The position numbers and the translations under genes are program-made. The notes beneath the pieces were generated by a model that was given only the letters and a program-made list of their open reading frames with translations, made no database searches and was not told the DNA's origin. Shown one piece after another: positions 15,147 through 30,561 of a stretch of 42,929 nt of DNA (the stretch's first letter is position 1; each line of letters opens with the position of its first letter). The stretch lies in the IMG/VR virus record IMGVR_UViG_3300028372_000017, positions 1 to 42,929 of that record. The stretch is one strand, 5' to 3'. This stretch comes from a virus.

Positions 15147-15160
15147 TATTACCGCTTCTC

Positions 15161-15625
15161 TTAAGCTTCCTCTCTTTCCGACTCTTCCTTCTTTGAGCTG
15201 GGCTCGGACACGTCGGCTGGCCCGGCCGTTTGGGAAAAAACCTCGTTGATATCTTCCCCATTAATAGCGGCCTTAACTTGTTTTTCTAAGTTATTCTGTT
15301 CCGCTACAATCTTATCTAGAACTACAACAGCCTTAGAGCTTAAAAACTCTTCCCATTGTTCTGGGGCCAATTCTTTTGTTGATCCCCAATAAACAAGAGT
15401 TCTACTTAAAAGTTTAAAAGAGAAAGCTTGCACTGCTTGTCTTCTTGAAAAAGTTTCGGAATCTTTCTGTAGATCAAGCATGTCCTGTTCAAGGCCAAAT
15501 TGATTTGCTACGCTTATAGTACGAACCCCTACTACTAGTTTATCAGGGATTACTTCTACTTTCTTAACAACATAGTCTTTCTCAAAAAGTTGCTCTAAAA
15601 TTTCTTTTGGTGTTATTTTTGACAT
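15161..15625 (-). CDS. Putative tail assembly chaperone (first of pair)
   Basis: A protein of 154 residues and the first gene of the leftward tail operon. It has an N-terminal half with beta strands (VVKKVEVIPDKLVVGVRTIS), a helical core (RRQAVQAFSFKLLSRTLVYW, PEQWEEFLSSKAVVVLDKIV) and an acidic, Ser/Glu-rich tail (SSKKEESEREEA). The helical core and location directly upstream of the tape measure fit a gpG-like tail assembly chaperone. The start ATG at 15625 has no clear Shine-Dalgarno site. The divergent intergenic region at 15626-15746 must carry its promoter. The function is a positional inference. Confidence 0.5.
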   Translation of the reverse strand: MSKITPKEILEQLFEKDYVVKKVEVIPDKLVVGVRTISVANQFGLEQDMLDLQKDSETFSRRQAVQAFSFKLLSRTLVYWGSTKELAPEQWEEFLSSKAVVVLDKIVAEQNNLEKQVKAAINGEDINEVFSQTAGPADVSEPSSKKEESEREEA

Positions 15626-15746
15626 AAAAGGTTATTAAATTTTTAAATTTGGTTATTTTTTATCATCTTTAATGTAAGGCTATTCCTTCTTATAATCAAG
15701 AGTTATTTGGTATAAGAATAATGAAGATACAAATATTATTTTAATT
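15626..15746. promoter_or_regulatory. Divergent intergenic region between tail operon and replication genes
   Basis: This 121-base AT-rich gap separates the leftward tail operon from the rightward helicase operon. On the plus strand it holds the GG-TATAAGAATA-ATG motif at 15709-15723. On the minus strand it holds a related but split sequence (TATAAGAAGGAATAG, about 15681-15695 read in reverse), which could drive the tail operon. I see no good sigma-70 pair for the minus strand. Promoter assignment here is inference. Confidence 0.45.
15709..15723 (+). promoter_or_regulatory. GG-TATAAGAATA motif, copy 1
   Basis: GGTATAAGAATAATG lies 24 bases upstream of the helicase start codon. It is one of five copies in intergenic positions on the plus strand, each before a gene or RNA. 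It is similar to, but longer than, a -10 element or the T4 late promoter core TATAAATA. A phage-specific promoter is inferred from repetition and position. Confidence 0.5.
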
Positions 15747-17114
15747 ATGAAATTTACAATTACTAATAAAGTCCTATGCGAGGGACTGCCTAATCAGGTA
15801 GCCACCTTTATTAAGGATTCACTAACAGTAGTCAACCCAGAGTTTGCTAATCGTATAGCAATGGAGAAAAGCATTTTCGGCGTTGATGAAAAACTTAAAT
15901 ATTATATAAGAAAAACAAGTGACTCTTATCTTATACCCGTGGGGTTTTTTGAGGAGTTGCTAAATTATTGTTTAGAGAACGGATATCCTGTTACAGGAGG
16001 GGATATTTACGATCAAAGAGTTCAAACTTCTGATAAAGAATTTTTCTCTAAATTAAAATTTAAAGCGCAATTACGTCCTTATCAGGAACCCATTGAGGAT
16101 CATTGTTTAGACTACTCTGTGGGCGCTATTCAAGCTAAAACAGGGTCGGGTAAAACCGTCAGTTTCATTAAAGTTATTTGCGAGCGTAAAGTAAATACAA
16201 TGGTCTTGATAGATACTAAAGACTTAGCTAATCAAACCGTTGACGCTTTAATACAGTTTACTAATTTGAAAAAGGACGATATAGGATTTATAGGAAATGG
16301 CCGGTACGAAGTAAAGCCTATCACTGTTTGTATTCTTAAAAGCTTGACCCTAATGGATAAACAAAAAGAGGATGAAGTGCATTCTTTCTTCGGTCAAGTT
16401 ATTACAGATGAAGTTCATATAATAGCTGCTAATACTTATTTCAAAGCTTTAAGTGCTATGCCTGCTAAATTTAAATTCGGCTTCAGCGCTACCCTTAAAA
16501 GAGCTGATGGGTTAACTCCAGTAATATTTTGGGCTAATGGGCCGTTAAGATATAAAGTACCTGACGAAGACGTAGCGCATGCTCTTATAATTCCCAGTTA
16601 CATACAAGTAGATACAGATTATTATTTCCCTTTATTTGATACAAGCGAGTATCAAGCTATGCTTACTCACATGGCAGAGGATGAAGAAAGAAATAAGCTA
16701 ATCTTAGCGGAATTTATGAAACGAAAAGAGCGGCCAAGTGTTTTTCTTTGTATGAGACGAAGTCACGTTGAAATTCTTGCTGATTTAATTCCTTCCTGTG
16801 TTCCTTTAAGTCCTTCTTTAAGTACAAAGGATAGAGCACAAAATATGGCAGACCTTAAAAGCGGTAAAGCGCAAAACGCCGCTACTACTTTTGCATTATT
16901 CGCTAAAGGAATGGATGTACCAAGATTGGAAGTGGCTTACTTATGTGGCCCTATGAAAGCCGAGACTAAACTACGTCAGACAGGTGGCAGAGTAATGCGT
17001 AAAAGCGATGCTACGGGCAAGGAAACTTCACTTATGGTAGACTTTATAGATAAAAGAGTAGGTCTACTTTACGGGCAAAGCAGAACTAGAGCTAAAATAT
17101 TAAGAGACTTGTAA
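15747..17114 (+). CDS. Superfamily 2 DNA helicase (UvsW/RAD25-like)
   Basis: A 455-residue ATP-dependent helicase. Residues about 110-135 contain the LRPYQEPIE Q-like motif and Walker A AKTGSGKT (130-137). Motif II is DEVH (221-224), motif III FSATL (246-250), and the second RecA domain has VFLCMRRSHVEILA and motif VI QTGGRVMRK. The short N-terminal domain (residues 1-100) and overall length match UvsW-like phage helicases, which remodel recombination intermediates and stalled forks. It begins the rightward operon and is followed after two bases by the Cys-rich gene. There is no Shine-Dalgarno site before the ATG. No TGA is present. The family is clear; UvsW equivalence is likely rather than proven. 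Confidence 0.9.
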   Translation: MKFTITNKVLCEGLPNQVATFIKDSLTVVNPEFANRIAMEKSIFGVDEKLKYYIRKTSDSYLIPVGFFEELLNYCLENGYPVTGGDIYDQRVQTSDKEFFSKLKFKAQLRPYQEPIEDHCLDYSVGAIQAKTGSGKTVSFIKVICERKVNTMVLIDTKDLANQTVDALIQFTNLKKDDIGFIGNGRYEVKPITVCILKSLTLMDKQKEDEVHSFFGQVITDEVHIIAANTYFKALSAMPAKFKFGFSATLKRADGLTPVIFWANGPLRYKVPDEDVAHALIIPSYIQVDTDYYFPLFDTSEYQAMLTHMAEDEERNKLILAEFMKRKERPSVFLCMRRSHVEILADLIPSCVPLSPSLSTKDRAQNMADLKSGKAQNAATTFALFAKGMDVPRLEVAYLCGPMKAETKLRQTGGRVMRKSDATGKETSLMVDFIDKRVGLLYGQSRTRAKILRDL

Positions 17115-17116
17115 TT

Positions 17117-17533
17117 ATGAGCGACGATAGATATGACTTTTCTGAGCTAGAGAAAGTTAATGGAACTATAGAAGAAATTTTAGAAGAGGATGCTGACGAT
17201 GATCCCAGAGAAGGATTTAGGATTTCTATGTGTTGCGGCAATTGCATTTACTTTTTCTATACCGGAGTAAAAAGCAGAAGGGGGTACTGTAAACTAACTA
17301 ACGTCAAGCATACTGATATAGGAGCTTGGCATAACCCCCAAATAGGAAAGATAGCTGAAAAATACGGCTGGCCTGAGACCCACACTACTTGCACTTGTGA
17401 AAAACATGAGTTAAGAGGTAGAGGCGGTTCTATAGATAAAGTAGAAGAGTGGGTGGACAAGAAATTTAATTTCGATGGAACACAAAGAGAAGATGGAGAC
17501 TTTTTAGAAGATGAGTTTGATTTTGATTTATAG
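17117..17533 (+). CDS. Small Cys-rich protein, probably metal-binding
   Basis: A protein of 138 residues, not recognised. Acidic ends frame a compact Cys-rich core: C39-C40-x2-C43, C58 within RGYCKL, then C92 and C94 followed by H97. This arrangement suggests one zinc site or an iron-sulfur site. It sits between the helicase and the PDDEXK-type nuclease genes, with ends 3 bases and -23 bases from its neighbours, so it is translated with them. A role in DNA processing is a guess from context. The C-terminal tail is strongly acidic (EDEFDFDL). Confidence 0.6.
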   Translation: MSDDRYDFSELEKVNGTIEEILEEDADDDPREGFRISMCCGNCIYFFYTGVKSRRGYCKLTNVKHTDIGAWHNPQIGKIAEKYGWPETHTTCTCEKHELRGRGGSIDKVEEWVDKKFNFDGTQREDGDFLEDEFDFDL

Positions 17534-17858
17534 TATGGTCCTGTGCTGGATAGCGGGGATGATTTATTTAACATTTAAGAATGGCAAATATTCAAAGCTT
17601 TACAGTCAGAAGAAAAAGAGTGAAGTGCGGCTAGGTTTTATAGCTGAGACTTTATCGCCTTTCTTGAAAGATTTTGATAAAGACCCTAAAAAGCTTTCTT
17701 TTTTAGGGAATCCTATAGATTTTGTTTATTTTGGTGAAGACGAAATAGTATTTATAGAAGTTAAAAGTGGGAAAAGTCAGCTTAACAAAAATCAACGTAC
17801 AGTGAGAGATTTAGTCAAAGATAAAAAAGTTTCTTTTGAGATTTTTAGGGTAGAATAA
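17511..17858 (+). CDS. Predicted endonuclease related to archaeal Holliday junction resolvase
   Basis: A protein of 115 residues with an N-terminal membrane segment (LILIYSMVLCWIAGMIYLTF) and a PDDEXK-type nuclease core: VRLGFIAETLSPFL, GNPIDFVYFG with the catalytic Asp, and IVFIEVKSGKSQL with the E-x-K pair, then NQRTVRDLV. This is the pattern of the predicted Holl-type endonuclease family (PF10107-like). The ATG at 17511 overlaps the previous gene by 23 bases. The ATG at 17535, just after the previous stop, is an equally good start and keeps most of the membrane helix. Membrane anchoring of a DNA nuclease is characteristic of this family. Function in recombination is inferred. Confidence 0.8.
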   Translation: MSLILIYSMVLCWIAGMIYLTFKNGKYSKLYSQKKKSEVRLGFIAETLSPFLKDFDKDPKKLSFLGNPIDFVYFGEDEIVFIEVKSGKSQLNKNQRTVRDLVKDKKVSFEIFRVE

Positions 17859-17859
17859 T

Positions 17860-17888
17860 TTGACTCTTACGATTTAATGGTTTATATT
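17860..17888 (+). promoter_or_regulatory. Sigma-70-type promoter before the exonuclease gene
   Basis: TTGACT at 17860-17865, a 17-base spacer and TATATT at 17883-17888, ending 35 bases before the exonuclease ATG. This is close to the bacterial housekeeping consensus and suggests that the unmodified host polymerase starts here. Confidence 0.7.
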
Positions 17889-17923
17889 GTGGCTCACCAA
17901 ATAACAACTACAAGAATTGAACC

Positions 17924-18562
17924 ATGAAATCACTTACATTCGATATAGAAACTATTCCCCAAAGAGCTCCTCTAAGCGAAATTCAGCAGGAAGAGCTTAC
18001 GAAAAAAATTAATCGCTATATGGCGAGGAGACCAGAAGAGGATGAGGAAGAAGTTAAAAACTTAATAATGGGAACTTCCCCTTATTTTGGAGAGATTGTA
18101 ACAATAGGATTATATTTCAACGACTCTGATGGAGACGAAAGTACTGCCTTAATAGGAGATGAAGAAGAAATTTTAAACAGATTCTGGACTATCCTGAATA
18201 AATTTAAAGGAGTCTTTGTTTCTTACAACGGTTTAACTTTCGACATTCCTTTTATTTTAAAGAGAAGTATGAAGTATAAGATCCTTCCTACAAATAGAGA
18301 ATTTTTAAAAACAAGAAGATACACCACTTACCCTCACTTTGATGTTAAGGAAGTTATAGCTGACTTCAATAAATATGAAGCCCCAACTTTACACTTAGCT
18401 TGTGAGCATTTAGGGATTCCTTCTCCTAAAGAAGGAGAAGTAAAAGCAAACGAGGTAGCTCAAGCTTTTGCCGATGGCCGCATACAAGAAATTGCTGACT
18501 ATTGTGTAAGAGACGTTATCGCAACTTTTAAAGTATTTGAGCGCATAAATTCTTATAGATAA
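17924..18562 (+). CDS. DnaQ-like 3'-5' exonuclease (PolB-exonuclease-related)
   Basis: A protein of 212 residues with the three exonuclease motifs of the RNase H-like DEDD fold: FDIET near residue 6 (Exo I), SYNGLTFDIPF around 100 (Exo II) and YCVRDVIATFK near 192 (Exo III, Tyr type, DEDDy). It lacks a polymerase domain and matches the family of stand-alone exonucleases related to the PolB proofreading domain (PF10108-like). It may proofread, or trim 3' ends for recombination alongside the neighbouring helicase and Sak4-like ATPase. A sigma-70-type promoter precedes it. No Shine-Dalgarno site is seen. Confidence 0.88.
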   Translation: MKSLTFDIETIPQRAPLSEIQQEELTKKINRYMARRPEEDEEEVKNLIMGTSPYFGEIVTIGLYFNDSDGDESTALIGDEEEILNRFWTILNKFKGVFVSYNGLTFDIPFILKRSMKYKILPTNREFLKTRRYTTYPHFDVKEVIADFNKYEAPTLHLACEHLGIPSPKEGEVKANEVAQAFADGRIQEIADYCVRDVIATFKVFERINSYR

Positions 18563-18565
18563 TTA

Positions 18566-18580
18566 GGTATAAGAATAGTG
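18566..18580 (+). promoter_or_regulatory. GG-TATAAGAATA motif, copy 2
   Basis: GGTATAAGAATAGTG begins 3 bases after the exonuclease stop and lies 54 bases upstream of the Sak4-like gene. It has the same core as four other intergenic copies. A promoter role is inferred. Confidence 0.5.
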
Positions 18581-18633
18581 TGCTGGAGTCTATTAAATTA
18601 TTTTTTAAACCAGTAAAAACTTAATATTTTTTT

Positions 18634-19563
18634 ATGTCATTATTTGAAAAAGCAAAACCAAAAGACCGAAGATTGAAAATGTATATCTACGGCAAAACGG
18701 GAACAGGTAAAACTGTTACCGCTTTACACTTCCCTTCTCCAGCAGTAATTGACGCTGAGAAAGGAACAGAGCATTACGCAGATACTTTTGATTTTTATAG
18801 GGTTCCTTCTAGTGATCCTAAAAAATTACATGAAGCTTTAGACGAGCTTCTATTAGATCCGGGAGAGTTTAAGACTCTTGTAGTAGACCCTTTCAGTGTT
18901 ATTTACGACAGGATCCTTAGAAATAAGCAGGATCAAATGAAGGAGCGAACAGGAGACATTCATTACGAATTAGAACCTCTGGATTACAAAAGTATTAAAA
19001 CAGAAGTTAAGATCATCATGGACAAGCTTTTAAGTTTGGATATGAATGTGATCGTTACAGCCAGAAGCAAACCTCTTTACGCTAAAGATAAATTTATGGA
19101 GCAGATCGGAGAGCAGCCCGACGGTCATAAAGATATGCCTTACATGTTTGATGTTGTACTTGAGCTTAGCAAGGACCAAGACGGTACCAGATTCGCTAAA
19201 GTAGAGAAGGATAGAACAAATAAGTTACCCCATGAATTTGAGTTTACTTATGACGCTTTTGTTGAGTATATTGGGCTTGATAGCCTAACGCGCTCAGCTG
19301 ACGCTTCTACCCAGAAAGAAAATATGAATGACAGAAGAAACCGAACGACAAAAATAACTTACGAAGGAGACGAGTTATATACTGCTGGCGTTAACGCAAA
19401 GACTCTTGGAGCTTTAACTAATATCCTGGAAGGGGTAGATGAGGATGAGCTTGTAGAACTTCTTAAAGAGGATTATGGAGTAGAAAGTCTTTTAGACTTA
19501 AACAATATAAAATCCAAAAGCTTACTCAGCTTCTTAGAAAAAGCCAAGGAAGCGGAGAACTAG
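18634..19563 (+). CDS. Sak4-like RecA-fold recombination ATPase
   Basis: A protein of 309 residues. Walker A is GKTGTGKT at 20-27, followed by ALHFPSPAVIDAEKGTEHYA. A Walker B-like strand is TLVVDPFSVIYD, and MNVIVTARSKPLY follows, all typical of the phage AAA_24/Sak4 single-domain RecA-like ATPases that assist single-strand annealing recombination and replication. The C-terminal 90 residues (SLTRSADAS onwards) are an extra helical domain ending in LSFLEKAKEAEN. Directly downstream is a DUF669 protein, a common partner and likely single-strand DNA binder, which supports the call. Confidence 0.85.
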   Translation: MSLFEKAKPKDRRLKMYIYGKTGTGKTVTALHFPSPAVIDAEKGTEHYADTFDFYRVPSSDPKKLHEALDELLLDPGEFKTLVVDPFSVIYDRILRNKQDQMKERTGDIHYELEPLDYKSIKTEVKIIMDKLLSLDMNVIVTARSKPLYAKDKFMEQIGEQPDGHKDMPYMFDVVLELSKDQDGTRFAKVEKDRTNKLPHEFEFTYDAFVEYIGLDSLTRSADASTQKENMNDRRNRTTKITYEGDELYTAGVNAKTLGALTNILEGVDEDELVELLKEDYGVESLLDLNNIKSKSLLSFLEKAKEAEN

Positions 19564-19634
19564 AATTGCTATTTTTGACAACACTGAAAACTATTTTTTA
19601 ACAGATTTATAAATTTTATTAATACAATTATATC

Positions 19635-20120
19635 ATGGGAATTAATTTAGCCAAAGCAAAAGAGAATATTAAGAGCAGAGAATCAAAAGAATTTAAGCCT
19701 ATTACCCCAGGCCGATATAATATGGAGGTTGAAGCTGCTGAGCTTACCACTTTAAACGACAAAGAAGCTATTGAAGTAACTTTTCGTATAGTTGAGGGAG
19801 ATTTTAGAAACCGTAAAATCTGGCACAGATTATTTTTAACTGAAGACGCTTTAACTTACGTAGTTCTTTTCTTACAGGCTACAGGTAACGAAGCGTTGGC
19901 AGACAGTGATGACATGGCAGAGGACAAAATCTGCTCTGCTGTAATAGGCTCCACTGTAAGCGCCTACGTTAAAAACAAAAACTACAAGGGTAAAGTTTAC
20001 TCTAACGTAGAAAGTTTTCAAAAGAGCGGAGAAGAAAGCGAGAGCAAAGCCGCTCCTGCAAGCACTTCCGCTAAACCAGCGGCCCAAACAGGATCTAAAA
20101 AGTCCAGCTTATTTAAATAA
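19635..20120 (+). CDS. DUF669-family protein, probable single-strand DNA-binding protein
   Basis: A protein of 161 residues. The N-terminal 105 residues (GRYNMEVEAAEL, EAIEVTFRIVEGDFRNRKIW, FLTEDALTYVVLFLQATG) match the DUF669 phage family, which has an OB-like beta fold and replaces SSB in many phages. The C-terminal tail is Ala/Ser/Lys rich and disordered (residues about 130-161). It sits with Sak4-like ATPase, RecU and dUTPase genes. A strong terminator follows 15 bases after the stop. A TTGACA at 19575-19580 upstream lacks a good -10, so a promoter there is uncertain. Confidence 0.8.
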   Translation: MGINLAKAKENIKSRESKEFKPITPGRYNMEVEAAELTTLNDKEAIEVTFRIVEGDFRNRKIWHRLFLTEDALTYVVLFLQATGNEALADSDDMAEDKICSAVIGSTVSAYVKNKNYKGKVYSNVESFQKSGEESESKAAPASTSAKPAAQTGSKKSSLFK

Positions 20121-20135
20121 ACCCTAACCCAATAA

Positions 20136-20168
20136 AGGCGAAGATTGATAGTCTTCGCCTCTTTTTTT
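20136..20168 (+). terminator. Rho-independent terminator abutting the RecU start
   Basis: A 9-bp stem (AGGCGAAGA/TCTTCGCCT), 7-base loop and a T7 run at 20162-20168. The RecU start codon begins only 3 bases after the T run, so RecU must come from readthrough of this terminator. Confidence 0.85.
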
Positions 20169-20171
20169 ATT

Positions 20172-20684
20172 ATGGCAGCAAGAGGATCAGAATTAGAGAA
20201 AAAAGCAGATAAAACAAATTTAAATAAAAGGTTATCAAAAGAAGCCTTAATTTTAAAAATACCCGTACCTATTATAAGAACAAGGAATGGTCTTGTACCT
20301 AAACCTTCTACTGTAGATTTTGCAGGGCTTATAAAGGGAGGTAACTTTATAGCTTTTGATGCAAAAGAAACTAAAGTAAAAACCCGGTTTGATTTAAGTA
20401 ATATACACCAGCATCAAGTTGAATATCTAAACGCAGTACGTGATTTAGGAGGTATAGCTTTCTTTCTTATATGATTTAAAGAAGTTCACAAAGAGCACGC
20501 TTACGTAACTCCTTTAAGCCTGATAAATTATTATTATTGGGACGAGGATAAAAGGCAAAGTATCCCTTTTGACGACTTCGATCTCTACGCCAAAAAAATC
20601 AAATTAACCAATTATTTAAACTTTTTAACAGACGATGAATTTAAGAAAAATTTATTCTACCGGGACCGAGTCCTTATTAAGTAA
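20172..20684 (+). CDS. recU: RecU-like Holliday junction resolvase, joined through TGA=Trp
   Basis: A protein of 170 residues when TGA 20472-20474 is Trp (FFLIWFKEV). The N-terminal half holds the RecU nuclease core: ARGSELEKKADKTN, PTIRTRNG-like LIIRTRNGLVPKPSTVDFAG with catalytic Asp, and NFIAFDAKETK with the E-x-K type motif, then HQHQVEYL and GGIAFFLI. The restored C-terminal half (LINYYYWDEDKRQSIPFDDF, LTNYLNFL) matches the RecU end. The ATG at 20172 is chosen because an earlier in-frame ATG lies inside the terminator. It follows that terminator with no Shine-Dalgarno site. The 3' end overlaps the next gene by 50 bases. RecU resolves Holliday junctions during phage recombination. Confidence 0.82.
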
Positions 20685-20925
20685 GGGTGATGATGTTATC
20701 GTTAAAGTAGTCCCTAAAGGAGAGTCTATAGTAGGAGAAATCCTAGACTACATAGAGGACGGCTCTGGCGATTCACTTGTCTTAGCAGTAAAGAGGGGGC
20801 TAGTAGATGACTCGGAAAGAGTTAAAGCTATTGCTAAAGTCTATAACGGTAAATTACCAAACCTTTCTATTATTCCATCTAAAACTATTTTACAAATAAC
20901 TTTATTGAAAGAATATGCCAATTAA
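20635..20925 (+). CDS. Small unknown protein between recU and dut
   Basis: A protein of 96 residues, unrecognised. It looks like a small beta-barrel (DDVIVKVVPKGESIVGEI, DSLVLAVKRGLVDD, ILQITLLKEYAN). The start lies inside the 3' end of recU (50-base overlap), and its stop overlaps the dUTPase gene by 11 bases, which suggests translational coupling in one transcript. No TGA codon occurs. Confidence 0.6.
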   Translation: MNLRKIYSTGTESLLSKGDDVIVKVVPKGESIVGEILDYIEDGSGDSLVLAVKRGLVDDSERVKAIAKVYNGKLPNLSIIPSKTILQITLLKEYAN

Positions 20926-21358
20926 ACGACCTAAATTACAAATTAAAAAACTTTCTCAGAATGCTACTATTCCTACAAGAGCTGAAGGTACTCCAGCAGG
21001 TCTGGATTTATACGCTTTAGTTCCCTTGAGGATTGCCGGTAAAGGCGTTAAACTAATAAACACAGGCCTGGCTATGGCCATTGAGGAAGGGTACTTTATA
21101 CAGATAGAAGAAAGAAGTGGCGTTAGCGTAAAAACTTCTTTATCTAAGAAAGCGGGGATCATTGATAGTGACTACCGTGGAGAAGTAAAAATAGTTATGC
21201 AAAATATAAGTGATGTTTTTGTGGACATAGAAGCTGGGGAAAAGATTGCTCAGTTTATAGTTCACCGTCACTATGATCCAGTAGTAGAAGTAGTTGAAAC
21301 TTTCGATCAAGAAGAGACTGAAAGAGGAGACAACGGCTTTGGAGCTTCTGGATCTTAA
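20915..21358 (+). CDS. dut: Trimeric dUTPase
   Basis: A protein of 147 residues with all five dUTPase motifs in order: AGLDLYA (motif 1, about 28-34), RSGVSVK (motif 2), GIIDSDYRGE (motif 3, with the conserved Tyr), GEKIAQFIV (motif 4) and the Gly-rich C-terminal arm RGDNGFGASGS (motif 5). It hydrolyses dUTP to dUMP and pyrophosphate, keeping uracil out of phage DNA and supplying dTMP precursor. It overlaps the preceding small gene and belongs to the replication block with the ribonucleotide reductase. Confidence 0.95.
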   Translation: MPIKRPKLQIKKLSQNATIPTRAEGTPAGLDLYALVPLRIAGKGVKLINTGLAMAIEEGYFIQIEERSGVSVKTSLSKKAGIIDSDYRGEVKIVMQNISDVFVDIEAGEKIAQFIVHRHYDPVVEVVETFDQEETERGDNGFGASGS

Positions 21359-21433
21359 TTAAAACGAATACGCACGCACGCAATCTTACCGTTTTAAGAA
21401 AAGAAAACTTAAAACAACTACCGATATTATTTT

Positions 21434-21817
21434 ATGAACAACTTATTAAACTTAGGACTTTCAGATGATGTAACTAGTTTCCAACGAACTTTAAAAATTA
21501 TTGATATCAAACAAAAGGAAGTATTATTGAAAAACGAAGAACCGGCAAGCAAAGTAATTTTTGAAACTATTGAGCCTAGTACAGGCAAAAAATTCACTAT
21601 AAGTGATGCTTGGATTCAAAATAAATATAATGAAAACGATAAAAGGGTGGCCGGGATCTGGCTCACTCTTGAGAACAACGAGATCCGAAAGGAAAGCACT
21701 TTAGCTAAGCTTTTGCTTAGATATGAAGCTTCCACTTTAGGAGATTTAATTGGAAACACTTTGGAAGCCTTTCCAGATAAAAACAATTTTTTAGTGTTCA
21801 CTACATGTGAACTTTAA
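21434..21817 (+). CDS. Unknown protein upstream of the sigma factor
   Basis: A protein of 127 residues, not recognised. It begins with MNNLLNLGLSDDVTSFQRTL, followed by a mixed alpha/beta region (EVLLKNEEPASKVIFETIEP, AWIQNKYNENDKRVAGIWLT, NTLEAFPDKNNFLVFTTCEL). The pattern is compatible with a small OB-fold or DNA-binding accessory protein, but that is only impression. It is a single-gene unit closed by a strong terminator, and a 75-base gap with no good promoter precedes it. Confidence 0.6.
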   Translation: MNNLLNLGLSDDVTSFQRTLKIIDIKQKEVLLKNEEPASKVIFETIEPSTGKKFTISDAWIQNKYNENDKRVAGIWLTLENNEIRKESTLAKLLLRYEASTLGDLIGNTLEAFPDKNNFLVFTTCEL

Positions 21818-21819
21818 CT

Positions 21820-21849
21820 ATATGGGGGTTTATGCCCCCATATTTTTTT
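21820..21849 (+). terminator. Rho-independent terminator
   Basis: A 9-bp stem ATATGGGGG/CCCCCATAT with a 6-base loop and a T7 run at 21843-21849, just 2 bases after the stop of the preceding gene. It ends the dut-side transcript before the sigma factor gene. Confidence 0.85.
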
Positions 21850-21872
21850 AGATTATGATTCAACCTTACTAC

Positions 21873-21901
21873 TATGACATGACAAACTAACCTTGTAATA
21901 T
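21873..21901 (+). promoter_or_regulatory. Possible weak sigma-70-type promoter for the sigma gene
   Basis: TATGAC at 21873-21878 (or ATGACA one base later), a 17- or 16-base spacer and TAATAT at 21896-21901, 15 bases before the sigma factor ATG. The -35 match is poor. It lies immediately after a terminator, so some promoter is needed here. Confidence 0.4.
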
Positions 21902-21916
21902 TTAATCCTATTTAAA

Positions 21917-22714
21917 ATGCTAAGCTATTATATAAAAGAAATTAAAAAACACGAACCCCTCCCTAAAGAAGAAGAGGTGGCTCTAATGAAAAAAGCTAAA
22001 GAAGGCCATAAACCTTCCTACGACAAAATAATAAATTCCAACTTACGCTTTGTTTTTCAAGTAGCTAAGTCTTATCAAAATAAGGGACTATCTTTGGAAG
22101 ACTTAATAGCCGAGGGAAATTTAGGCTTAGTTAAAGCTTTTGGTCGTTTTGATCCCGCTAAGGGGGTAAAATTTATTTCATACGCTGTATGATGGATTCG
22201 TCAAAGTATTTTAAGCTCTTTATACACTAATGGTAGTACTATTAGATTACCGCTAAACAAACTAGTTAACGTAAGTAAGATTAATAAGATAAAACAAGGT
22301 TTAGAGCAGGAACTTTTAAGAGAACCTACCCTATCAGAACTAGAAGCTGAGATAGATGATCCTGCTATTAAAGATGATATAGATTATCTGCATACTATTA
22401 TAAGCCTGGATGTTGAAAGGACAGAGAGTGGGGAAGCCACTCTTCATGAGGTTCTGCCAGACCATGCAGCTATTTTTGAGCATAATTTAAATTCTTTTAA
22501 GGACGATTTTGAAGAAGTCATAAGAGACTTCCCTTTAAGAGAAAAGAAAATTTTAAATATGTATTACGGTATAGGGTACAGGAGAACTTATAATTTAAGA
22601 GAGATAGGAAATGAGTTGGATTTAACTCGGGAAAGAATAAGACAAATTAAAGAAAAAAGTTTGGAAAAAATTAGGAATAAAAAAGAAGGCGAAACTTTAC
22701 TAGATTATTTATAG
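21917..22714 (+). CDS. RpoD-like sigma-70 factor interrupted by TGA=Trp
   Basis: A protein of 265 residues with TGA 22190-22192 as Trp. It shows region 1.2/2.1 ([20 protein letters not shown]), region 2 ([39 protein letters not shown], then KFISYAVWWIRQSI), region 3 ([11 protein letters not shown]) and region 4 ([20 protein letters not shown]). The TGA stands for the first Trp of the invariant WWIRQ in region 2.3, the pair that melts promoter DNA, and is followed by TGG. This is the cleanest proof of recoding in the window. With standard code the product stops at 91 residues, inside region 2. It probably directs host RNA polymerase to phage promoters. The DNA polymerase ATG follows after one base. 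Confidence 0.92.
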
Positions 22715-22715
22715 A

Positions 22716-24656
22716 ATGCGAAAAAATACTAAATATATTGACTCTTACCCAAAGCTTACTCACGCTTTAGAGAATTTAAACACTCTGGACGTAGTAGGTT
22801 TTGACGTAGAGACTACAGGTCTTGATCCTTTAAAGGACAAGATAATACTTCTTCAGGTAGGAACACATTGGATACAGTATGTATTTGATGTTTATAAGCT
22901 TGGGGACAGTATTAAAAAAGTTATACATTATTTAAACAAAACAGGATTAACTAAGATAGCTCATAACGCCAAGTTTGACTATTCTATGGTTAAAGGTAAT
23001 TTTGGGGTAAGCTTAGAGAATATTATTTGTACCTGGGTTGGCTCTACTCTTCTTACTAAAGGAATCAAAAGCGCTGATAATTCTTTGGACGGGTGTTTAA
23101 ACAAATACTTAAACGTCAAGATAGATAAAAGCGCTCAGAAAAGCTTTATAGGAATGAAATGGGGTGAGGAGTTTACAAGAGAGCAGATAGATTACGCCGG
23201 AATTGATGTAGGGTATTTAGAGGCCCTTTATAATAAGATAAACGAGCTTATCGAGGACAGAGAAATGTCTTTGCTTTCCGAGCTTGAAAATGAAGCTATA
23301 AGAGTTTGCGGTGACATGGAGATCAATGGTTTTTACTTAGATACTTCTATGTGGCTGGCCTTACGTGATAAGGCTGTGGAAGGTGCTGATAAAGCTAAGG
23401 CCGAGCTTGACGCTTTCTTTAAGCCTCTATGTAGGCTAGACTTATTTGGCAATCCTGTGGTACTGCTTAAAAATAAGCACACTTCTTTAAACTATAACTC
23501 CCCTTCACAGATTAAACCTCTGCTTGAAAAAATAACCGGAGAAGTTATAGAAAGTACTGGGGAGCCCGAGCTGAAAAAGCTTAAGCATCCTGTTATTAAA
23601 AGTTTGTTGAGCTATAGAGAAGCTCAAAAGAAGATTACAACTTACGGTCGAGAGTTTATTGAGAAGCATGTACATCCTGTTACAGGAAGAGTGCATAGCA
23701 GTTTTAAACAGCTCGGAACTGATAGTGGCCGCATGGCTTCTAGGAGCCCAAATCTTCAGAATATCCCGAGTGCCAAAGCTTACAGAGAGTGCTTTAGGCC
23801 ACAGGATGAAAGAACACACGATTTAATTTGCGCCGATTTTTCGGGTCAAGAATTAAGACTGTTAGCGCAGATTAGCAAAGAGAAAGAATTTATCTATGCC
23901 TTAGATAACAATATGGATTTGCACTCTTATAGTGCTTCTCTTATCTTTGGTATTGATTATAAAAGCTTCTTTTATTTCGGAGAAGAAGGAAAAGGCGAGG
24001 CTATAGCAGATAGTGATGGGTACTTTAAAAAAGAAACTCTCGGTCTTCAAGAAGACGGTACTGTTATAGATAGTGCCGGAGATTCTATTATCAGGCCTTC
24101 AATGAAAAAGAAATTCCGTACTCCAGCCAAGAGTATTACTTTTGGGTTAGTTTACGGAATGGGACCAGGCAAGCTTGCTGATACTTTAGAAATAAGTATT
24201 AAAGCAGCTAAGGAGTTAATTGAAAAGTATTTTGAGACTTTCCCTAAGATTAGAGAAACTTTAGATTACTTTACAGACTTGGCCATGAAGAATAAATACG
24301 CTTACTCTCCTCTTGACGGCAGAAGAAGAATATTTAGTGGTGTAGATTGGGATCACGGCGGTAAAGTGGCTCACTTAAAAAACGTATCTAAAAATCACCC
24401 TTTTCAAGGAGCAGGAGCTAGTGTAACTAAACTCGCGCTGTGTAGAATGAAAAGAACTATTGATGATAAAGGATGGGCTCCTTACGCTAAGATCGTTAAT
24501 GTAGTCCATGACGAAATTATAATTGAATGTCATGTAGACTACTCCCAAAAAGTAGCTAAAGAACTAGAAACTCAAATGATTGAAGCTTTTAACTTCTACG
24601 CTCCAGATGTAAGTATGGTAGCTAAAGCTGAGATAGGAAAATACTGGATACATTAA
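22716..24656 (+). CDS. Family A DNA polymerase with 3'-5' exonuclease
   Basis: A protein of 646 residues. The N-terminal DEDD exonuclease carries FDVETTGLDPL (D30, E32), IAHNAKFDYSMV and a YAGIDVGYLEALY third motif. The polymerase domain has SSFKQLGTDSGRMASRSPNL, motif A ADFSGQELRLLAQ, motif B RTPAKSITFGLVYG and motif C VVHDEI. A 5' nuclease domain is absent, as usual in phage PolA. An insertion of about 50 residues between motif A and motif B (YKSFFYFGEEGKGEAIADSD region) is atypical. It is the likely replicative polymerase. All Trp codons are TGG. The macro domain gene follows after one base. Confidence 0.95.
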   Translation: MRKNTKYIDSYPKLTHALENLNTLDVVGFDVETTGLDPLKDKIILLQVGTHWIQYVFDVYKLGDSIKKVIHYLNKTGLTKIAHNAKFDYSMVKGNFGVSLENIICTWVGSTLLTKGIKSADNSLDGCLNKYLNVKIDKSAQKSFIGMKWGEEFTREQIDYAGIDVGYLEALYNKINELIEDREMSLLSELENEAIRVCGDMEINGFYLDTSMWLALRDKAVEGADKAKAELDAFFKPLCRLDLFGNPVVLLKNKHTSLNYNSPSQIKPLLEKITGEVIESTGEPELKKLKHPVIKSLLSYREAQKKITTYGREFIEKHVHPVTGRVHSSFKQLGTDSGRMASRSPNLQNIPSAKAYRECFRPQDERTHDLICADFSGQELRLLAQISKEKEFIYALDNNMDLHSYSASLIFGIDYKSFFYFGEEGKGEAIADSDGYFKKETLGLQEDGTVIDSAGDSIIRPSMKKKFRTPAKSITFGLVYGMGPGKLADTLEISIKAAKELIEKYFETFPKIRETLDYFTDLAMKNKYAYSPLDGRRRIFSGVDWDHGGKVAHLKNVSKNHPFQGAGASVTKLALCRMKRTIDDKGWAPYAKIVNVVHDEIIIECHVDYSQKVAKELETQMIEAFNFYAPDVSMVAKAEIGKYWIH

Positions 24657-24657
24657 T

Positions 24658-25122
24658 ATGATAAATTACGTACAAGGGGATCTTCTGGATCCCTCTTTAA
24701 ATTTCGATGTAATAGTGCACGGCTGTAACTGTTTCCATACTATGAGAAGTGGAGTAGCCAAAGCTATAAAAGAAAAATATCCTCAAGCTTACGAAGCTGA
24801 TAAAAATTTAACTGAGAAAGGGGACGAAAGCAAGTTGGGCTCTTTAAGTATGGCCTTTAATGAGTCCGGAGAAGGCCCAGAGCATATCGTAAATGCTTAT
24901 ACACAGTATCGTTACGGTAGGGATAAGGTACACGTCGACTATGAAGCTTTGGGGGCTGCTATGGTCGCCCTAAGTGAAATTTTTGATGCTGATAAATACT
25001 CTATAGCTTTTCCTAAGATAGGATGTGGCTTAGCTGGAGGAGACTGGAATGTCGTAGAGGCTATAATAAATAAAATTTTTGCACATAAAAAAGTAACAGT
25101 GGTTGAATATGACGGAGAATAA
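24658..25122 (+). CDS. Macro domain protein (Appr-1''-p phosphatase-like)
   Basis: A protein of 154 residues spanning one macro domain: YVQGDLLDP at the start, DVIVHGCNCFHTMRSGVAKA (the ADP-ribose-binding loop), LGSLSMAF, HIVNAYTQYRYG and FPKIGCGLAGGDWNVVEAII near the end. This subclass binds ADP-ribose and removes phosphate or ADP-ribosyl groups from small molecules or macromolecules. The gene abuts the polymerase gene and overlaps the HD gene by 14 bases. In a phage it may recycle ADP-ribose products or reverse ADP-ribosylation-based defence; that role is inference. Confidence 0.9.
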   Translation: MINYVQGDLLDPSLNFDVIVHGCNCFHTMRSGVAKAIKEKYPQAYEADKNLTEKGDESKLGSLSMAFNESGEGPEHIVNAYTQYRYGRDKVHVDYEALGAAMVALSEIFDADKYSIAFPKIGCGLAGGDWNVVEAIINKIFAHKKVTVVEYDGE

Positions 25123-25633
25123 ACTATTAGTGACAAAAGCGGAGCTTCTTGCAAAAGAGACTCACGCCAGAGTTAATCAAACTTACGATGGTAAGCCTTA
25201 TTACTTTCATTTAAAAAAGGTTTACGCAAATGCGGATTATTTCAAGCTTTTAATTCCGGAGGAAGATCATTTCGTAGTCCTTGCGGCCGCATGGGCGCAT
25301 GATATGATAGAAGACTGTCGCTACACTTATAAAGACTTGAAAAAAGATCTTGGTGTTCGGGTAGCAGACATAGTCTATGCTTGTACTGATGAAAAAGGTC
25401 GAACGCGTGAAGAGCGTAAAAATGAGAAGTTTTTTAACGAGCTTGTTAAAAGCCCTCTTGGTGTTTACGTAAAGCTTTGTGATTTAAAGGCTAATATGGA
25501 GTACTCAGCTAGTAGAGTTAAGGGTAACCTGTGGATGAAATACAGAAACGAACTGCCCCATACTAAGGAAAAATTAGCAGAATATAGAGACGCTTACGCT
25601 CCTATTTGGCAATCTTTAGAAAACTTAAAGTAA
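25109..25633 (+). CDS. HD-domain hydrolase, (p)ppGpp hydrolase/MESH1-like
   Basis: A protein of 174 residues. Metal and catalytic motifs are YFHLKKV (H34), AAAWAHDMIEDCRYTYKDL (H64, D65, ED at 68-69) and later VKLCDLKANMEY with the fourth metal ligand Asp. This set is typical of the SpoT/MESH1 branch of HD hydrolases that remove pyrophosphate from (p)ppGpp. The synthetase domain is absent. The ATG at 25109 is preferred over an upstream TTG and overlaps the macro gene. In a phage it may lower alarmone levels or neutralise toxic alarmone synthetases; that is inferred. Confidence 0.8.
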   Translation: MTENKLLVTKAELLAKETHARVNQTYDGKPYYFHLKKVYANADYFKLLIPEEDHFVVLAAAWAHDMIEDCRYTYKDLKKDLGVRVADIVYACTDEKGRTREERKNEKFFNELVKSPLGVYVKLCDLKANMEYSASRVKGNLWMKYRNELPHTKEKLAEYRDAYAPIWQSLENLK

Positions 25634-25772
25634 GCCAAAAAGGCAATAGAACTGACAACTTGCCAAAGACAACTAACTAATAAAAATTACGAGAAATTCA
25701 AGTGGAATAAAGGTTTTCTTATTCATACTTTTTATATCTCAAAGAATAAACAATATTAATTAAAAAACATTT
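25634..25772 (+). other. 139-base intergenic leader before the ribonucleotide reductase
   Basis: An AT-rich gap with no clear -35/-10 pair and no terminator. A TTATTCATAC stretch on the plus strand reads on the minus strand as GTATGAATAA, a weak relative of the TATAAGAATA motif in the wrong orientation. The gap is too short for a normal cobalamin riboswitch, and I see no B12-box-like sequence. Confidence 0.3.
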
Positions 25773-28022
25773 ATGGCAAGTAATAAGACAGATTTTAGAC
25801 AACTGTTATCGGATATTAAGTTTTACAGCGACTACGGACAGTTTGATTATGAAAGAAACGTGTATGAAGCATGGCCCGAGAGCGTTGACCGCGTCATGGA
25901 CATGCATAAGATTAAGTATAAAGATAAATTAAATGATAAGCTTCTAGCTTTAATGAATGAAGCAGAAGAAGCTTATAAAAGTAAACTAGTTCTAGGCTCT
26001 CAAAGAGCTTTACAGTTCGGCGGAGAGTCTCTTTTAAAGCATGAAGCTAAGATGTATAACTGTCTAAGTTCTCATGTAGATAGGGCTAGATTTTTTCAAG
26101 ACTACTTCTATTTTCTTTTATGCGGATGCGGTGTAGGATTTAGTGTTCAAGATCGACACATTTCTAAACTGCCTGCAGTTAAAAAGAGAAGTAAGAGAAC
26201 AAGAACTTACACAGTAGAAGATAGTATTGAAGGTTGGGCAGATAGTGTAGGAGTTTTACTTTCTTCTTATTTTGTAGATGGTGGGACTTACCCTGAATAT
26301 AAAAACTACACTATACACTTCGACTTATCTAATATTAGGGAAAAGGGATCCTTTATTTCTGGGGGGTTTAAAGCCCCCGGTCCTGAGCCTTTAAGGGAGT
26401 CCTTAATTTTAATTGAAAAGATTGTTGAGGGAGCTCTTAAAAGAAACGATAAAGGAGAAAAGCTTAAAAGTATAGAAATTTATGATATTTGTATGCACAT
26501 AGCCGACGCTGTTATAAGCGGTGGTGTAAGAAGAAGTGCTACTATCTGTTTATTTGATAGATGGGATACAGATATGATGAACGCAAAGACTTTTAGTAAT
26601 TATAGCCCTGATCCAAATAACTCTCTTAATCCCCAGAGAGCTAGAAGTAATAATAGCGCTGTTCTTAAAAGAGGAGACGTTACTTTTGAGGAGTTTATGA
26701 TTTTATTCAATAAAGTTAAAGACTATGGAGAGCCTGGATTTATTTTTGTAGATCATTATGATGCTACCTTTAACCCTTGTGTTGAGATTCAAAAGTTCCC
26801 CCTAACTATAGACGGGAGAAGTGGGTTTCAAGGCTGTAATCTAACAGAGCTAAATGGAGGCAAATGTACCACTGTAGATATTTTTTATAAAGCTTGCAGG
26901 GCTGGTGCTATACTTGGTACACTACAAGCGGGTTATACAGACTTCCGATACGTGGAAGATACTTGTAAGGAAATCTTTGATAGAGAAGCTTTATTAGGTG
27001 TTTCCATTACTGGAATGGCTATGAATCCGAGTATCCTGTTTGATCCAGAAGTACAAAGAAAAGGAGCGGAAATAGTAAAAGAAGTAAACAAGGAAGTAGC
27101 TGAACTTATTGGCATTAACCAGGCTGCAAGAACTACTTGCGTTAAGCCTAGTGGTAATGCTAGTGTTATTCTTAAAACTTCTTCTGGTATCCATAGTGAG
27201 CACGCTAAAGATTACTTCAGATTGATGCAGATGAATAAAGATAACGACGTCGTACAGTTCGTAAAAGAAACTAACCCTCACATGATAGAAGAAAGTGTAT
27301 GGAGTAGAGATAAAACAGATTACGTCATCTATGTTCCTATTGAGAACCCAGAAGGAACTTTATATAAAGATGAAGTAAACGGTGTGGACTTCTTAGAGCT
27401 TGTAAAGCTTACACAGGAAAACTGGGTAGAATACGGCACTAATGTAGATCTATGCGTTAAGCCTGAATTGCGACACAACGTTTCAAATACTTGTACCGTA
27501 CCTGAAGGAGACTGGGATGATGTGGCTGAGTTTATTTTTGAAAATAAAGATACTTTCTCTGGGGTTTCTTTGTTAGGATCCTTTGGGGATAAAGATTATC
27601 AACAAGCTCCTAACACTTCGGTAATAACCGACGTGAATAAACTTTACGATACTTACGGAGTAGGTGTGACCTTTTCGAGCGGGTTGATAGTAGACGGGTT
27701 AAAAGTGTTTAATGACAACCTTTGGACTGCTACTCAAGCTGTAAAAGATTTTAATAAGAATTCAGTATCTTTTAAAGATAAAGATATTCTTAAAATAGAC
27801 TGGATAAGGCGAGCAAACAAATTCGCTAAAAACTTCTTTGAAGGAGATTTAGATGCTATGATTCTTTGCTTGAAAAATGTCCATCTCTTACACAAGTGGC
27901 ACACAATTAAAAACAAGTATACTCCTATTGACTGGTCTTCCTATGATTCTATACCTGAATTTACAGATGTAGATACTATGGGAGCTGTAGCTTGTCACGG
28001 AGGTTCTTGTGAAATTATATAA
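25773..28022 (+). CDS. Class II (B12-dependent) monomeric ribonucleoside-triphosphate reductase
   Basis: A protein of 749 residues, the size of the Lactobacillus leichmannii-type enzyme. Key elements are QRALQFGG and MYNCLSSHVDR (active-site Cys), LCGCGVGFSV, SGGVRRSATICLFD, NPCVEIQKF, GCNLTELNGGKC (the radical Cys and second disulfide Cys), GVSITGMAMNP and the C-terminal ACHGGSCEII redox pair. No glycyl-radical site or second subunit gene is present, in line with the adenosylcobalamin class. It makes dNTPs for phage replication and depends on host cobalamin. All Trp codons are TGG despite its length. No Shine-Dalgarno site precedes the ATG. Confidence 0.92.
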   Translation: MASNKTDFRQLLSDIKFYSDYGQFDYERNVYEAWPESVDRVMDMHKIKYKDKLNDKLLALMNEAEEAYKSKLVLGSQRALQFGGESLLKHEAKMYNCLSSHVDRARFFQDYFYFLLCGCGVGFSVQDRHISKLPAVKKRSKRTRTYTVEDSIEGWADSVGVLLSSYFVDGGTYPEYKNYTIHFDLSNIREKGSFISGGFKAPGPEPLRESLILIEKIVEGALKRNDKGEKLKSIEIYDICMHIADAVISGGVRRSATICLFDRWDTDMMNAKTFSNYSPDPNNSLNPQRARSNNSAVLKRGDVTFEEFMILFNKVKDYGEPGFIFVDHYDATFNPCVEIQKFPLTIDGRSGFQGCNLTELNGGKCTTVDIFYKACRAGAILGTLQAGYTDFRYVEDTCKEIFDREALLGVSITGMAMNPSILFDPEVQRKGAEIVKEVNKEVAELIGINQAARTTCVKPSGNASVILKTSSGIHSEHAKDYFRLMQMNKDNDVVQFVKETNPHMIEESVWSRDKTDYVIYVPIENPEGTLYKDEVNGVDFLELVKLTQENWVEYGTNVDLCVKPELRHNVSNTCTVPEGDWDDVAEFIFENKDTFSGVSLLGSFGDKDYQQAPNTSVITDVNKLYDTYGVGVTFSSGLIVDGLKVFNDNLWTATQAVKDFNKNSVSFKDKDILKIDWIRRANKFAKNFFEGDLDAMILCLKNVHLLHKWHTIKNKYTPIDWSSYDSIPEFTDVDTMGAVACHGGSCEII

Positions 28023-28029
28023 TTTATAA

Positions 28030-28044
28030 GGCATAAGAATAATG
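28030..28044 (+). promoter_or_regulatory. GG-TATAAGAATA motif, copy 3 (C for T)
   Basis: GGCATAAGAATAATG. The final ATG of the motif is the start codon of the small Cys-rich gene, so if this is a -10 element its transcript would begin after that ATG and serve genes farther right, or the element works in another way. Confidence 0.45.
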
Positions 28045-28221
28045 GATAACAACCATCCAAATTTTTACGTTAATGATGAAGGGCTCTTTGTTTTAAAAGA
28101 GTCCTTTTTAATTAAAAGAGGCTCTTGTTGCGGATCTAAGTGTTTACACTGTCCGTATGATCCTTGTCAAAAAGGCACTACCGATCTTAAACCTCAATCG
28201 AAAACTGACAATAATTCATAA
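28042..28221 (+). CDS. Small Cys-rich DUF5522-like protein
   Basis: A protein of 59 residues. The centre carries FLIKRGSCCGSKCLHCPYDP, the RG-x-CC-x-x-x-C-x-x-CP-Y signature of the small bacterial DUF5522 family, plus one more Cys soon after. Five clustered Cys residues suggest a metal site. The function of the family is unknown to me. The start codon overlaps the repeated TATAAGAATA motif. It lies between the ribonucleotide reductase and the heat shock protein genes. Confidence 0.65.
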   Translation: MDNNHPNFYVNDEGLFVLKESFLIKRGSCCGSKCLHCPYDPCQKGTTDLKPQSKTDNNS

Positions 28222-28288
28222 ATAAGCTAAAGGCATTATTTTTGAAGAAAACTGGAAAACTTTAATCGGAAACTAAACTAACTTAAAA

Positions 28289-28636
28289 ATGATAATAGTG
28301 AAAAGAAGTATGATTGATTTCCCAATAAAAGAAGTTCTAGGTTTAATGAATACTTTCTTAGAAGATCCTTTAGCTTTATCTTCTTTACTTGACAGCAAAG
28401 AGCTCTCCAAGACCCCTTCCTCTATAATAATACCAGCTCCTGGTATTAGCAAGGAAGAAGTAAAAGTATCAAAAAGTGAGAATACTCTGCACGTTTATGT
28501 TAAAGACTCTTTAGCAAGAAACATTTCTATCCCTAGCAGTGTAAAAGCTGGAGACATAAAAGTTAAAGTTAAGGACGGTCTTATAACCATAAGCCTTAAG
28601 TCTTCTAAAACTTTTGAAGACATTCCTATAACTTAA
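28289..28636 (+). CDS. Small heat shock protein (Hsp20/alpha-crystallin)
   Basis: A protein of 115 residues. The alpha-crystallin domain is recognisable by the PAPGISKEEVKVSKSENTLH strands and the final strands VKVKDGLITISLKS; the C-terminal IPIT is the I-x-I anchor that docks oligomers. The N-terminal arm is short (about 45 residues). It is an ATP-independent holdase. Related genes occur in cyanophage genomes. It may protect phage enzymes or aid virion assembly. A terminator follows 27 bases after the stop. Confidence 0.85.
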   Translation: MIIVKRSMIDFPIKEVLGLMNTFLEDPLALSSLLDSKELSKTPSSIIIPAPGISKEEVKVSKSENTLHVYVKDSLARNISIPSSVKAGDIKVKVKDGLITISLKSSKTFEDIPIT

Positions 28637-28662
28637 TTTAAAATAAAACTTTAATTAACTTT

Positions 28663-28687
28663 AAGGGGCTTCAGGGCCCCTTTTTTT
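28663..28687 (+). terminator. Rho-independent terminator abutting the next start
   Basis: A 7-bp stem AAGGGGC/GCCCCTT with a 6-base loop and a T7 run at 28681-28687. The next gene's ATG at 28691 follows after the three bases ATT, the same arrangement as before RecU. Confidence 0.8.
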
Positions 28688-28690
28688 ATT

Positions 28691-28999
28691 ATGGATATAA
28701 CTAATCAACCTCCTTGGTTCGTAGATCTTTTTTTAGATTGTTATGAGCTTTTGACTTCAAACAGAGCAGAAATGTTTTTAAAGGCTCGAACTGCTTTTTT
28801 AAGAAAAGAGAAAGAACCTAAAGTCTATGCCGGCTGCATGCTGACTGAAGACTTAACCCAATTTATAGTTATAGGTAATACTACCTTGACTAGTGAAACT
28901 CAAACCATTAAATTTATTTACCATTTAAATGAGCAAGAAAAAGAAAACCTACTTAAAAGAAGATCCGATAACAGGGATTGAATTTCCGGCATGGCGTAG
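28691..28999 (+). CDS. Unknown small protein, ends beyond a TGA
   Basis: A protein of 102 residues if TGA 28979-28981 is Trp (NRDWISGMA, then TAG), or 96 if TGA is a stop. It starts MDITNQPPWFVDLFLDCYEL, has a helical basic middle and a beta region (FIVIGNTTLTSETQTIKFIY). Not recognised. It starts right after a terminator T run with no Shine-Dalgarno site and overlaps the next gene by 71 bases under the TGA=Trp reading. This is one of two places where a TGA stop cannot be excluded. Confidence 0.55.
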
Positions 29000-29300
29000 A
29001 GAAGCCTTGGATGAGTACCCTATAACTAACATCCATGTAGGCAAGCCTATATCTTTGGCCGAGGATCCTAAATCAAAAAGATATGACCTAGTAAAGATTT
29101 ACACCCCTGGACAAAAGCTTTATCCAGACGGGGGTTATAAAATAACCGACCCTGACTTAAAAAACGGCCGATCTATTTACCCCGAAGAAGCCCGAGCTTT
29201 CCCTCCCCCTAAAATGAAATCTAACTCTCAGTTAGCCTTGAAAAATAAAACTAAAAGGAAGGCTAAAAGAAAAACTAAAAAGAAAAAATCCTCTAAATAG
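28929..29300 (+). CDS. Unknown basic protein
   Basis: A protein of 123 residues with a very basic C-terminal tail (from about residue 100, many Lys and Arg in KKTKRKAKRK-type runs) and a Pro-rich middle (EARAFPPPKMKS). The N-terminus is also lysine rich (MSKKKKTYLKEDP). The central part (EFPAWRREALDEYPITNIHV, PGQKLYPDGGYKITDP) is not familiar. The charge suggests nucleic acid binding, which is inference. It overlaps the upstream gene and is followed directly by a TATAAGAATA motif. Confidence 0.55.
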   Translation: MSKKKKTYLKEDPITGIEFPAWRREALDEYPITNIHVGKPISLAEDPKSKRYDLVKIYTPGQKLYPDGGYKITDPDLKNGRSIYPEEARAFPPPKMKSNSQLALKNKTKRKAKRKTKKKKSSK

Positions 29301-29315
29301 GGTATAAGAATAGTG
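29301..29315 (+). promoter_or_regulatory. GG-TATAAGAATA motif, copy 4
   Basis: GGTATAAGAATAGTG starts on the base after the preceding stop codon and lies 54 bases before the next ATG, the same spacing as copy 2. The GTG at its end is in frame with that downstream gene, but the intervening residues look non-coding. Confidence 0.5.
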
Positions 29316-29369
29316 AGGCAGACTTGCTTTGTTTTTATCTTAAATTTTAATTTAACTTATCTTACCACC

Positions 29370-29705
29370 ATGAATTATATAGTTTGTTACTTAGACGGAA
29401 ATTACTCTATCGAAGCCCAAGATATTTCTTTGGATGTTTTAGAAAGACTTTTTGAGTCTGGAGAGTTTGATTGCAACGGGTCTGTCATGGACGATGTCAC
29501 CGATTGCGCTTATGTGTTTCATGTAGGGGAGCACTCAGAAGGTGAAGGAGAGTTCTTTATAGTTCCAGAAGGCGTAGTCCCTGAGAGCGAAGCCGAAGAA
29601 CACGAATTTCTGGAAAGCTTGTATGAGTATTTTCCTTCACCTTCTTTTTTACGTTCAGCTTTAGCTGAGTATAATTGGGTAACCGGGGAGGGTTTTTATG
29701 CTTAA
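29370..29705 (+). CDS. Unknown acidic protein
   Basis: A protein of 111 residues, strongly acidic (EHSEGEGEFFIVPEG, ESEAEEHEFLESLYEYF). It begins MNYIVCYLDGNYSIEAQDIS. The ATG at 29370 is preferred over an in-frame GTG 57 bases upstream, because the upstream residues are hydrophobic and unlike the rest. Its end overlaps the NAD kinase start by 8 bases, indicating a coupled pair. An acidic small phage protein could be a DNA mimic or a host inhibitor; there is no direct support. Confidence 0.55.
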   Translation: MNYIVCYLDGNYSIEAQDISLDVLERLFESGEFDCNGSVMDDVTDCAYVFHVGEHSEGEGEFFIVPEGVVPESEAEEHEFLESLYEYFPSPSFLRSALAEYNWVTGEGFYA

Positions 29706-30519: not shown

Positions 30520-30520
30520 T

Positions 30521-30549: not shown

Positions 30550-30561
30550 ATAAGTCATTCT

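Follow-up and report, generated by a model that had tools for sequence, protein, structure and literature searches.

Recurrent in-frame TGA codons in a replication-operon sigma factor gene of a phage subclade that reads TGA as tryptophan

Stop codon recoding is reportedly found in lytic and virion genes of phages, and Borges et al. are said to have proposed in 2022 (cited in PMC10879173) that it serves to time the expression of lytic genes. The leading idea for why some phages do so is the timing of late proteins. In crAss-like phages, recoding of TGA to Trp or of TAG to Gln is found mainly in genes presumed to be late, and in their Zeta group recoded stops occur even in the genes for RNA polymerase subunits (Yutin et al. 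2021, PMC7886860). For suppressor tRNAs associated with theta ribozymes, release of the suppressor tRNA is proposed to control the switch (PMC10879173).

The phages described here resemble the recoded phages of Borges et al. (2022) in that the reassigned stop lies mainly in structural and lysis genes and late proteins depend on recoding. Unlike those phages, they form a contractile-tailed group from IMG/VR in which TGA stands for Trp and a sigma factor of the replication operon is among the recoded genes. With crAss-like phages they share TGA as Trp in putative late genes, quick code switching between relatives and, judging by the UCA-anticodon tRNA of one relative, probably suppressor tRNAs (PMC7886860); in contrast to them, the DNA analysed here encodes a sheath, a baseplate, a sigma-70 factor and a second, probable sigma-70 homologue, has a recoded sigma, and no crAss RNA polymerase was seen. 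A suppressor tRNA is the proposed switch control, as in the theta-ribozyme systems (PMC10879173), but Rfam found no theta ribozyme in the analysed DNA or beside the UCA-anticodon tRNA of the relative G023, and the latter scores as tRNA-Sec. Late-gene recoding in phages is known already, and a recoded sigma gene is what is new here; a literature search for recoded sigma genes found no example, which is not proof of absence.

The whole stretch of DNA that was analysed, referred to as the window, comprises 42,929 bases of the IMG/VR virus record IMGVR_UViG_3300028372_000017. It is best explained as a fragment of a dual-code phage with a contractile tail. Its gene blocks, two sigma genes and RecU are as follows.

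3..15625, minus strand: tail operon (baseplate wedge, sigma2, probable tape measure) with TGA as a Trp codon
6640..7365, minus strand: sigma2, probable divergent sigma-70 homologue in the tail operon, 241 aa, two TGA and one TGG
6769..6771, minus strand: TGA codon 199 of sigma2; relatives mostly have Y here
7333..7335, minus strand: TGA codon 11 of sigma2; relatives have W, Y or F here
15747..33162, plus strand: replication and nucleotide-metabolism block, TGA-free except RecU and sigma1
20145..20684, plus strand: RecU Holliday-junction resolvase, TGA at 20472-20474
21917..22714, plus strand: sigma1, RpoD-like sigma-70 factor, 265 aa with TGA read as Trp (table 4)
22190..22192, plus strand: TGA codon 92 of sigma1, first Trp of the region 2.3 motif YAVWWIRQ (SYAVWWIRQ)
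33289..42928, minus strand: operon for head, sheath and neck (sheath, major capsid and further genes) with TGA as a Trp codon

The plus-strand block encodes a helicase, a Holliday-junction-related endonuclease, an exonuclease, an AAA ATPase, DUF669, RecU, dUTPase, sigma1, PolA, RNR and others. For RecU, the ATG at 20172 is a more likely start than the listed TTG, which sits within a hairpin. The called genes of the window contain 18 in-frame TGA versus 98 TGG, and under table 4 they end in TAA (33) or TAG (12) and in no other codon, so TGA is not sporadic here. The window also carries a phage tmRNA (31224-31608, plus strand) with an unusually long predicted tag, GETKTPAKVFTLGAESNYAYGIAV, and repeated segments (YEKSKTFIKNNDLDITPERLTKSVIEE and variants) in the probable tape-measure protein (about 11890-12770, minus strand). 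As hints to the host, related capsid genes on two MAG contigs, one from Bacteroidales and one from Deltaproteobacteria, and weak use of Shine-Dalgarno sites (10/41) are no more than suggestive. A scan of viral records with the baseplate protein as query gave no match.

The window and nine other dual-code phage records were aligned with relatives that use the standard code. The 1142 aligned TGA positions face W in 53.5%, Y in 11.5% and F in 8.9% of cases, and the corresponding values for 3605 TGG positions are 53.3%, 10.5% and 9.0%. Because both codons face the same residues, TGA is, judged from these alignments, a tryptophan codon in the dual-code phages of this group; the match between the two profiles also rules out code 25, in which TGA would be read as Gly.

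The two strands differ strongly in their use of this codon. Mid-gene counts for the 205-kb G023 (IMGVR_UViG_3300025602_000002) are 30 TGA versus 447 TGG on the replication strand, and 137 versus 159 on the virion strand (p 3e-39 for the split). The same split is seen in G028 (p 1e-26), G003 (1e-10), G005 (1.5e-9), G026 (1.4e-8) and G012 (2e-5), and none was found in the standard-code G007. In the window, the virion strand has 15 TGA to 55 TGG and the replication strand 2 to 43; setting sigma1 and RecU aside leaves 0 to 41 on the latter (p 9e-4 versus the virion strand). On the replication strand of most dual-code genomes, those where several TGA-ended ORFs exist, the median run-on from such a TGA to the next TAA or TAG is 3-12 codons, and in alignments the terminal TGAs stand behind complete proteins and look like true stops. 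These run-ons equal those of standard-code relatives, and there is no sign that backup stops were selected behind terminal TGAs. For TGA-ended frames on the virion strand the median run-on is 85-317 codons. As read from these comparisons, TGA ends genes on the replication strand and encodes Trp on the virion strand of the same genome, the stop role being drawn mainly from relatives; the standard-code relatives G004, G007 and G037 use TGA as stop throughout. Since TGA has both meanings on different strands of one genome, the host very probably terminates at TGA, in which case full-length sigma1 would require recoding. The strand split fits such a host combined with a code switch during infection, with the order in time taken from gene content.

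The earlier note had placed a TGA at residue 92 of the RpoD-like sigma, here called sigma1; the position is exact to the base. Under table 11 the protein ends after 91 aa (ORF 21917-22192). Codon 92 is the single TGA of this gene in the window, the neighbouring codon 93 is TGG, and standard-code relatives have TGG (W) aligned at codon 92. The protein matches SigA over its whole length (E 5e-47) and contains sigma-70 regions 2 and 4 (Pfam E 4e-18 and 2e-11), including the core of regions 2.3/2.4 and the helix of region 4. Downstream of the TGA it is still 55-68% identical, which argues that full-length sigma1 is under selection; together with the genome-wide alignment of TGA to Trp, this conservation rules out a pseudogene or a sequencing error.

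The subclade is represented by three lineages, namely the window, G001 (IMGVR_UViG_3300035702_000343) with the near-identical G017, and G012 (IMGVR_UViG_3300007987_000062); further scans for subclade sigma1 genes yielded none besides those of G001/G017 and G012. Their replication operons contain seven TGAs in total, four in sigma1 and three in RecU (one in the window, two in G001), and the remaining genes of these operons have 0 TGA versus 126 TGG. The sigma1 sites are W92 in the window, W34 in G001, and W11 and W91 in G012; as the last is equivalent to W92 of the window, the four codons represent three alignment sites. Random placement of TGA would reach sigma1 in all three lineages with P 0.0014 (4e-4 with the window, the source of the idea, left out; about 1e-3 counting independent events only), and any one gene in all three with P 0.004. 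The distribution of these codons supports sigma1 as a repeated TGA target, in this subclade only, within an operon otherwise TGA-free apart from RecU. The sigma1 segment before the first TGA measures 91 aa in the window, 33 aa in G001 and 10 aa in G012. Because these lengths differ while the full length is conserved, it is termination that recurs and not a short product.

The earlier note had suggested a survey for TGA at the same codons of related sigma genes and had counted TGG found there at random against its idea. At the exact codons, relatives carry TGG, F, Y or H, which goes partly against it. For sigma1, TGA does recur in the gene in every subclade lineage, but the more distant dual-code phages G005, G006, G023, G026 and G028 have a TGG-only sigma1, so a gate, if any, is lineage-specific and tied to the gene instead of one particular codon. 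G034 (IMGVR_UViG_3300010883_018845) has TGA in its exonuclease and RecU genes and none in sigma1. TGA-rich cassettes lie on the replication strand of G023 (20976-31631; mostly glycosyltransferases and a GDP-mannose dehydratase), G028 (19663-26771) and L296 (10983-14440), the latter two without annotation. With the G034 genes and the G023 cassette carrying TGA, the codon is not exclusive to sigma genes on this strand. Among other features of the relatives are group I introns (L093 15383-15622, from G001; L202 2638-2865, from G019) and an extra ORF that interrupts the RNR gene in G001 and the PolA gene in G012.

The idea that both sigma factors are gated finds partial support for sigma1, with its TGA read as Trp and its repeated targeting in the subclade, and none for sigma2, whose two codons were likewise given correctly to the base (codon 11 at 7333-7335, codon 199 at 6769-6771). 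Sigma2 matches PHROG 351 (E 5e-13) and RpoD (E 1e-10) weakly, region 3 alone passes in Pfam, and it lacks the WW pair. The homologue nearest to sigma2 (67% identical) is devoid of Trp codons, and homologues carry Y, F, H or W at its TGA sites. As its operon bears TGA generally, the TGAs of sigma2 do not exceed chance; the gene shows the background level of TGA and is in this respect like any other of the virion operon.

Putative transcription signals of the window are as follows.

15668..15699, minus strand: TTG-N19-TTACATTAAA element on the tail-operon side, opposite the TTGGTATAAGAA motif, kept as TTG-N18/19-TTAyATTwwA; candidate sigma-70-like late-side promoter
15709..15718, plus strand: GGTATAAGAA promoter-like element at the head of the replication operon
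20136..20160, plus strand: intrinsic terminator just upstream of RecU
21820..21843, plus strand: intrinsic terminator just upstream of sigma1 (fold 21812-21856, -17.9 kcal/mol, z -4.5)

In G001, a terminator likewise precedes RecU and a strong hairpin precedes sigma1. Given these elements, RecU and sigma1 may be separate transcription units. PolA follows directly behind sigma1, no terminator stands between them, and PolA is TGA-free in 3/3 lineages. The single-block motif TTGGTATAAGAA, which has no -35 partner, precedes replication-strand genes and occurs on the plus strand of the window at 15709-15718, 18566-18575 and 29301-29310, as well as in G001, G004, G005, G007, G012, G023 and G028. Nine genomes hold 55 intergenic copies, with 3 on the opposite strand, all in G037, and in 8 phages the divergent control region carries the motif without any change; from this distribution it is probably an early or middle promoter. 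Promoters of the Bacteroidetes type (TAnnTTTG) showed no enrichment between genes.

A possible agent of the switch is a tRNA with a UCA anticodon, encoded in G023 at 70650-70746 (L216 10650-10746) just behind the tail module. ARAGORN, run with code 4, calls it tRNA-Trp, and Rfam scores it, with its long variable arm, as tRNA-Sec (48.5 bits versus a cut-off of 47), though TGA is Trp in G023. A UCA tRNA-like sequence lies at the matching place in G028. No UCA suppressor tRNA was found in the window and subclade records, all incomplete fragments. RF1 and TrpRS genes were found in none of 15 records, with working controls; the window and its closest relatives, all of them fragments, likewise yielded neither a release factor nor TrpRS. 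Amber (CUA) anticodon tRNAs are encoded in G002 (4202-4275), G023 (105393-105469) and G028 (115365-115439), relatives in which TAG still serves as a stop.

Based on what the comparison of genomes establishes, that is, TGA as Trp, its partition by strand, its role as a stop in the replication genes of relatives, and its repeated presence in sigma1, we propose the following hypothetical scenario, in which (i) the host would terminate at TGA at the start of infection, so that only the short, lineage-dependent sigma1 fragment would be made; (ii) TGA would later be read as Trp, probably via a phage-encoded UCA tRNA such as that of G023, the window fragment ending short of the equivalent place; (iii) virion genes use TGA freely and replication genes avoid it; (iv) in the subclade, sigma1 and often RecU would have shifted into the TGA-bearing class; and (v) sigma1 would serve in the middle or late phase, its supply depending on the code switch. 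We infer the timing, the suppressor in the phage of the window and the promoters targeted by sigma1, with early and late assigned from gene content. That the code switch gates sigma1 in this way, full-length protein appearing only after recoding, seems to us about as probable as its opposite. More tentative, and in our view somewhat short of an even chance, is the further proposal that a phage lineage has placed its replication-operon sigma under its genetic-code switch, so that the suppressor would license a transcription programme along with virion translation in a code-to-transcription relay.

The presence of TGA in other replication-strand genes makes passive tolerance in late-needed genes a serious rival, which we regard as quite possible though not the likelier side of an even bet. 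Sigma1 and RecU would then be late or low-demand genes, perhaps with their own promoters behind the terminators, in which TGA builds up as recoding is already on when they are needed; they would depend on recoding with no regulatory purpose. Junction resolution is a late function, and with TGA in RecU and in the G034 exonuclease the codon may merely mark genes that tolerate late or low expression; that G034 has TGA in these genes and not in sigma1, the TGA-rich glycosyltransferase cassette on the G023 replication strand, and the terminators or hairpin before RecU and sigma1 in both the window and G001 point the same way. However, PolA, right behind sigma1 with no terminator between, has stayed free of TGA in every lineage, and repeated gain of TGA in such a small gene is improbable by chance. 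Chance itself could have let a few TGAs into the replication operon and put them in sigma1, and the sample is small, with only seven codons across the three lineages, some of them inherited in common; but the placement probabilities for independent events alone and for any gene leave this reading very improbable.

A code 4 host, in which TGA is simply read as Trp and nothing would be gated, would agree with TGA as a regular Trp codon in the window and with the lack of a detected suppressor tRNA there. It is nevertheless highly unlikely given the strand-split code and the existence of standard-code relatives: TGA use differs sharply between virion and replication strands, TGA terminates genes on the replication strand of those genomes, G004, G007 and G037 use it only as a stop, and G023 has its own UCA tRNA. 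The earlier note had named a host that reads TGA as Trp as fatal to its idea, and the strand split and the TGA-ended replication genes disfavour such a host. We give equally little credence to programmed leaky readthrough, with a functional short product and full-length sigma1 at a low constant level; a shortened reading frame does exist in the sequence, but products of 91, 33 and 10 aa imply no conserved short protein, and TGA is an ordinary codon throughout the virion genes.

If gating of sigma1 by the code switch is true, a recoding-dependent sigma in an otherwise TGA-free operon would extend the timing role of recoding from translation to transcription. The group, in which standard-code phages occur next to dual-code ones whose genomes use TGA both as stop and as Trp, offers a useful natural series for studying the origin of such codes.
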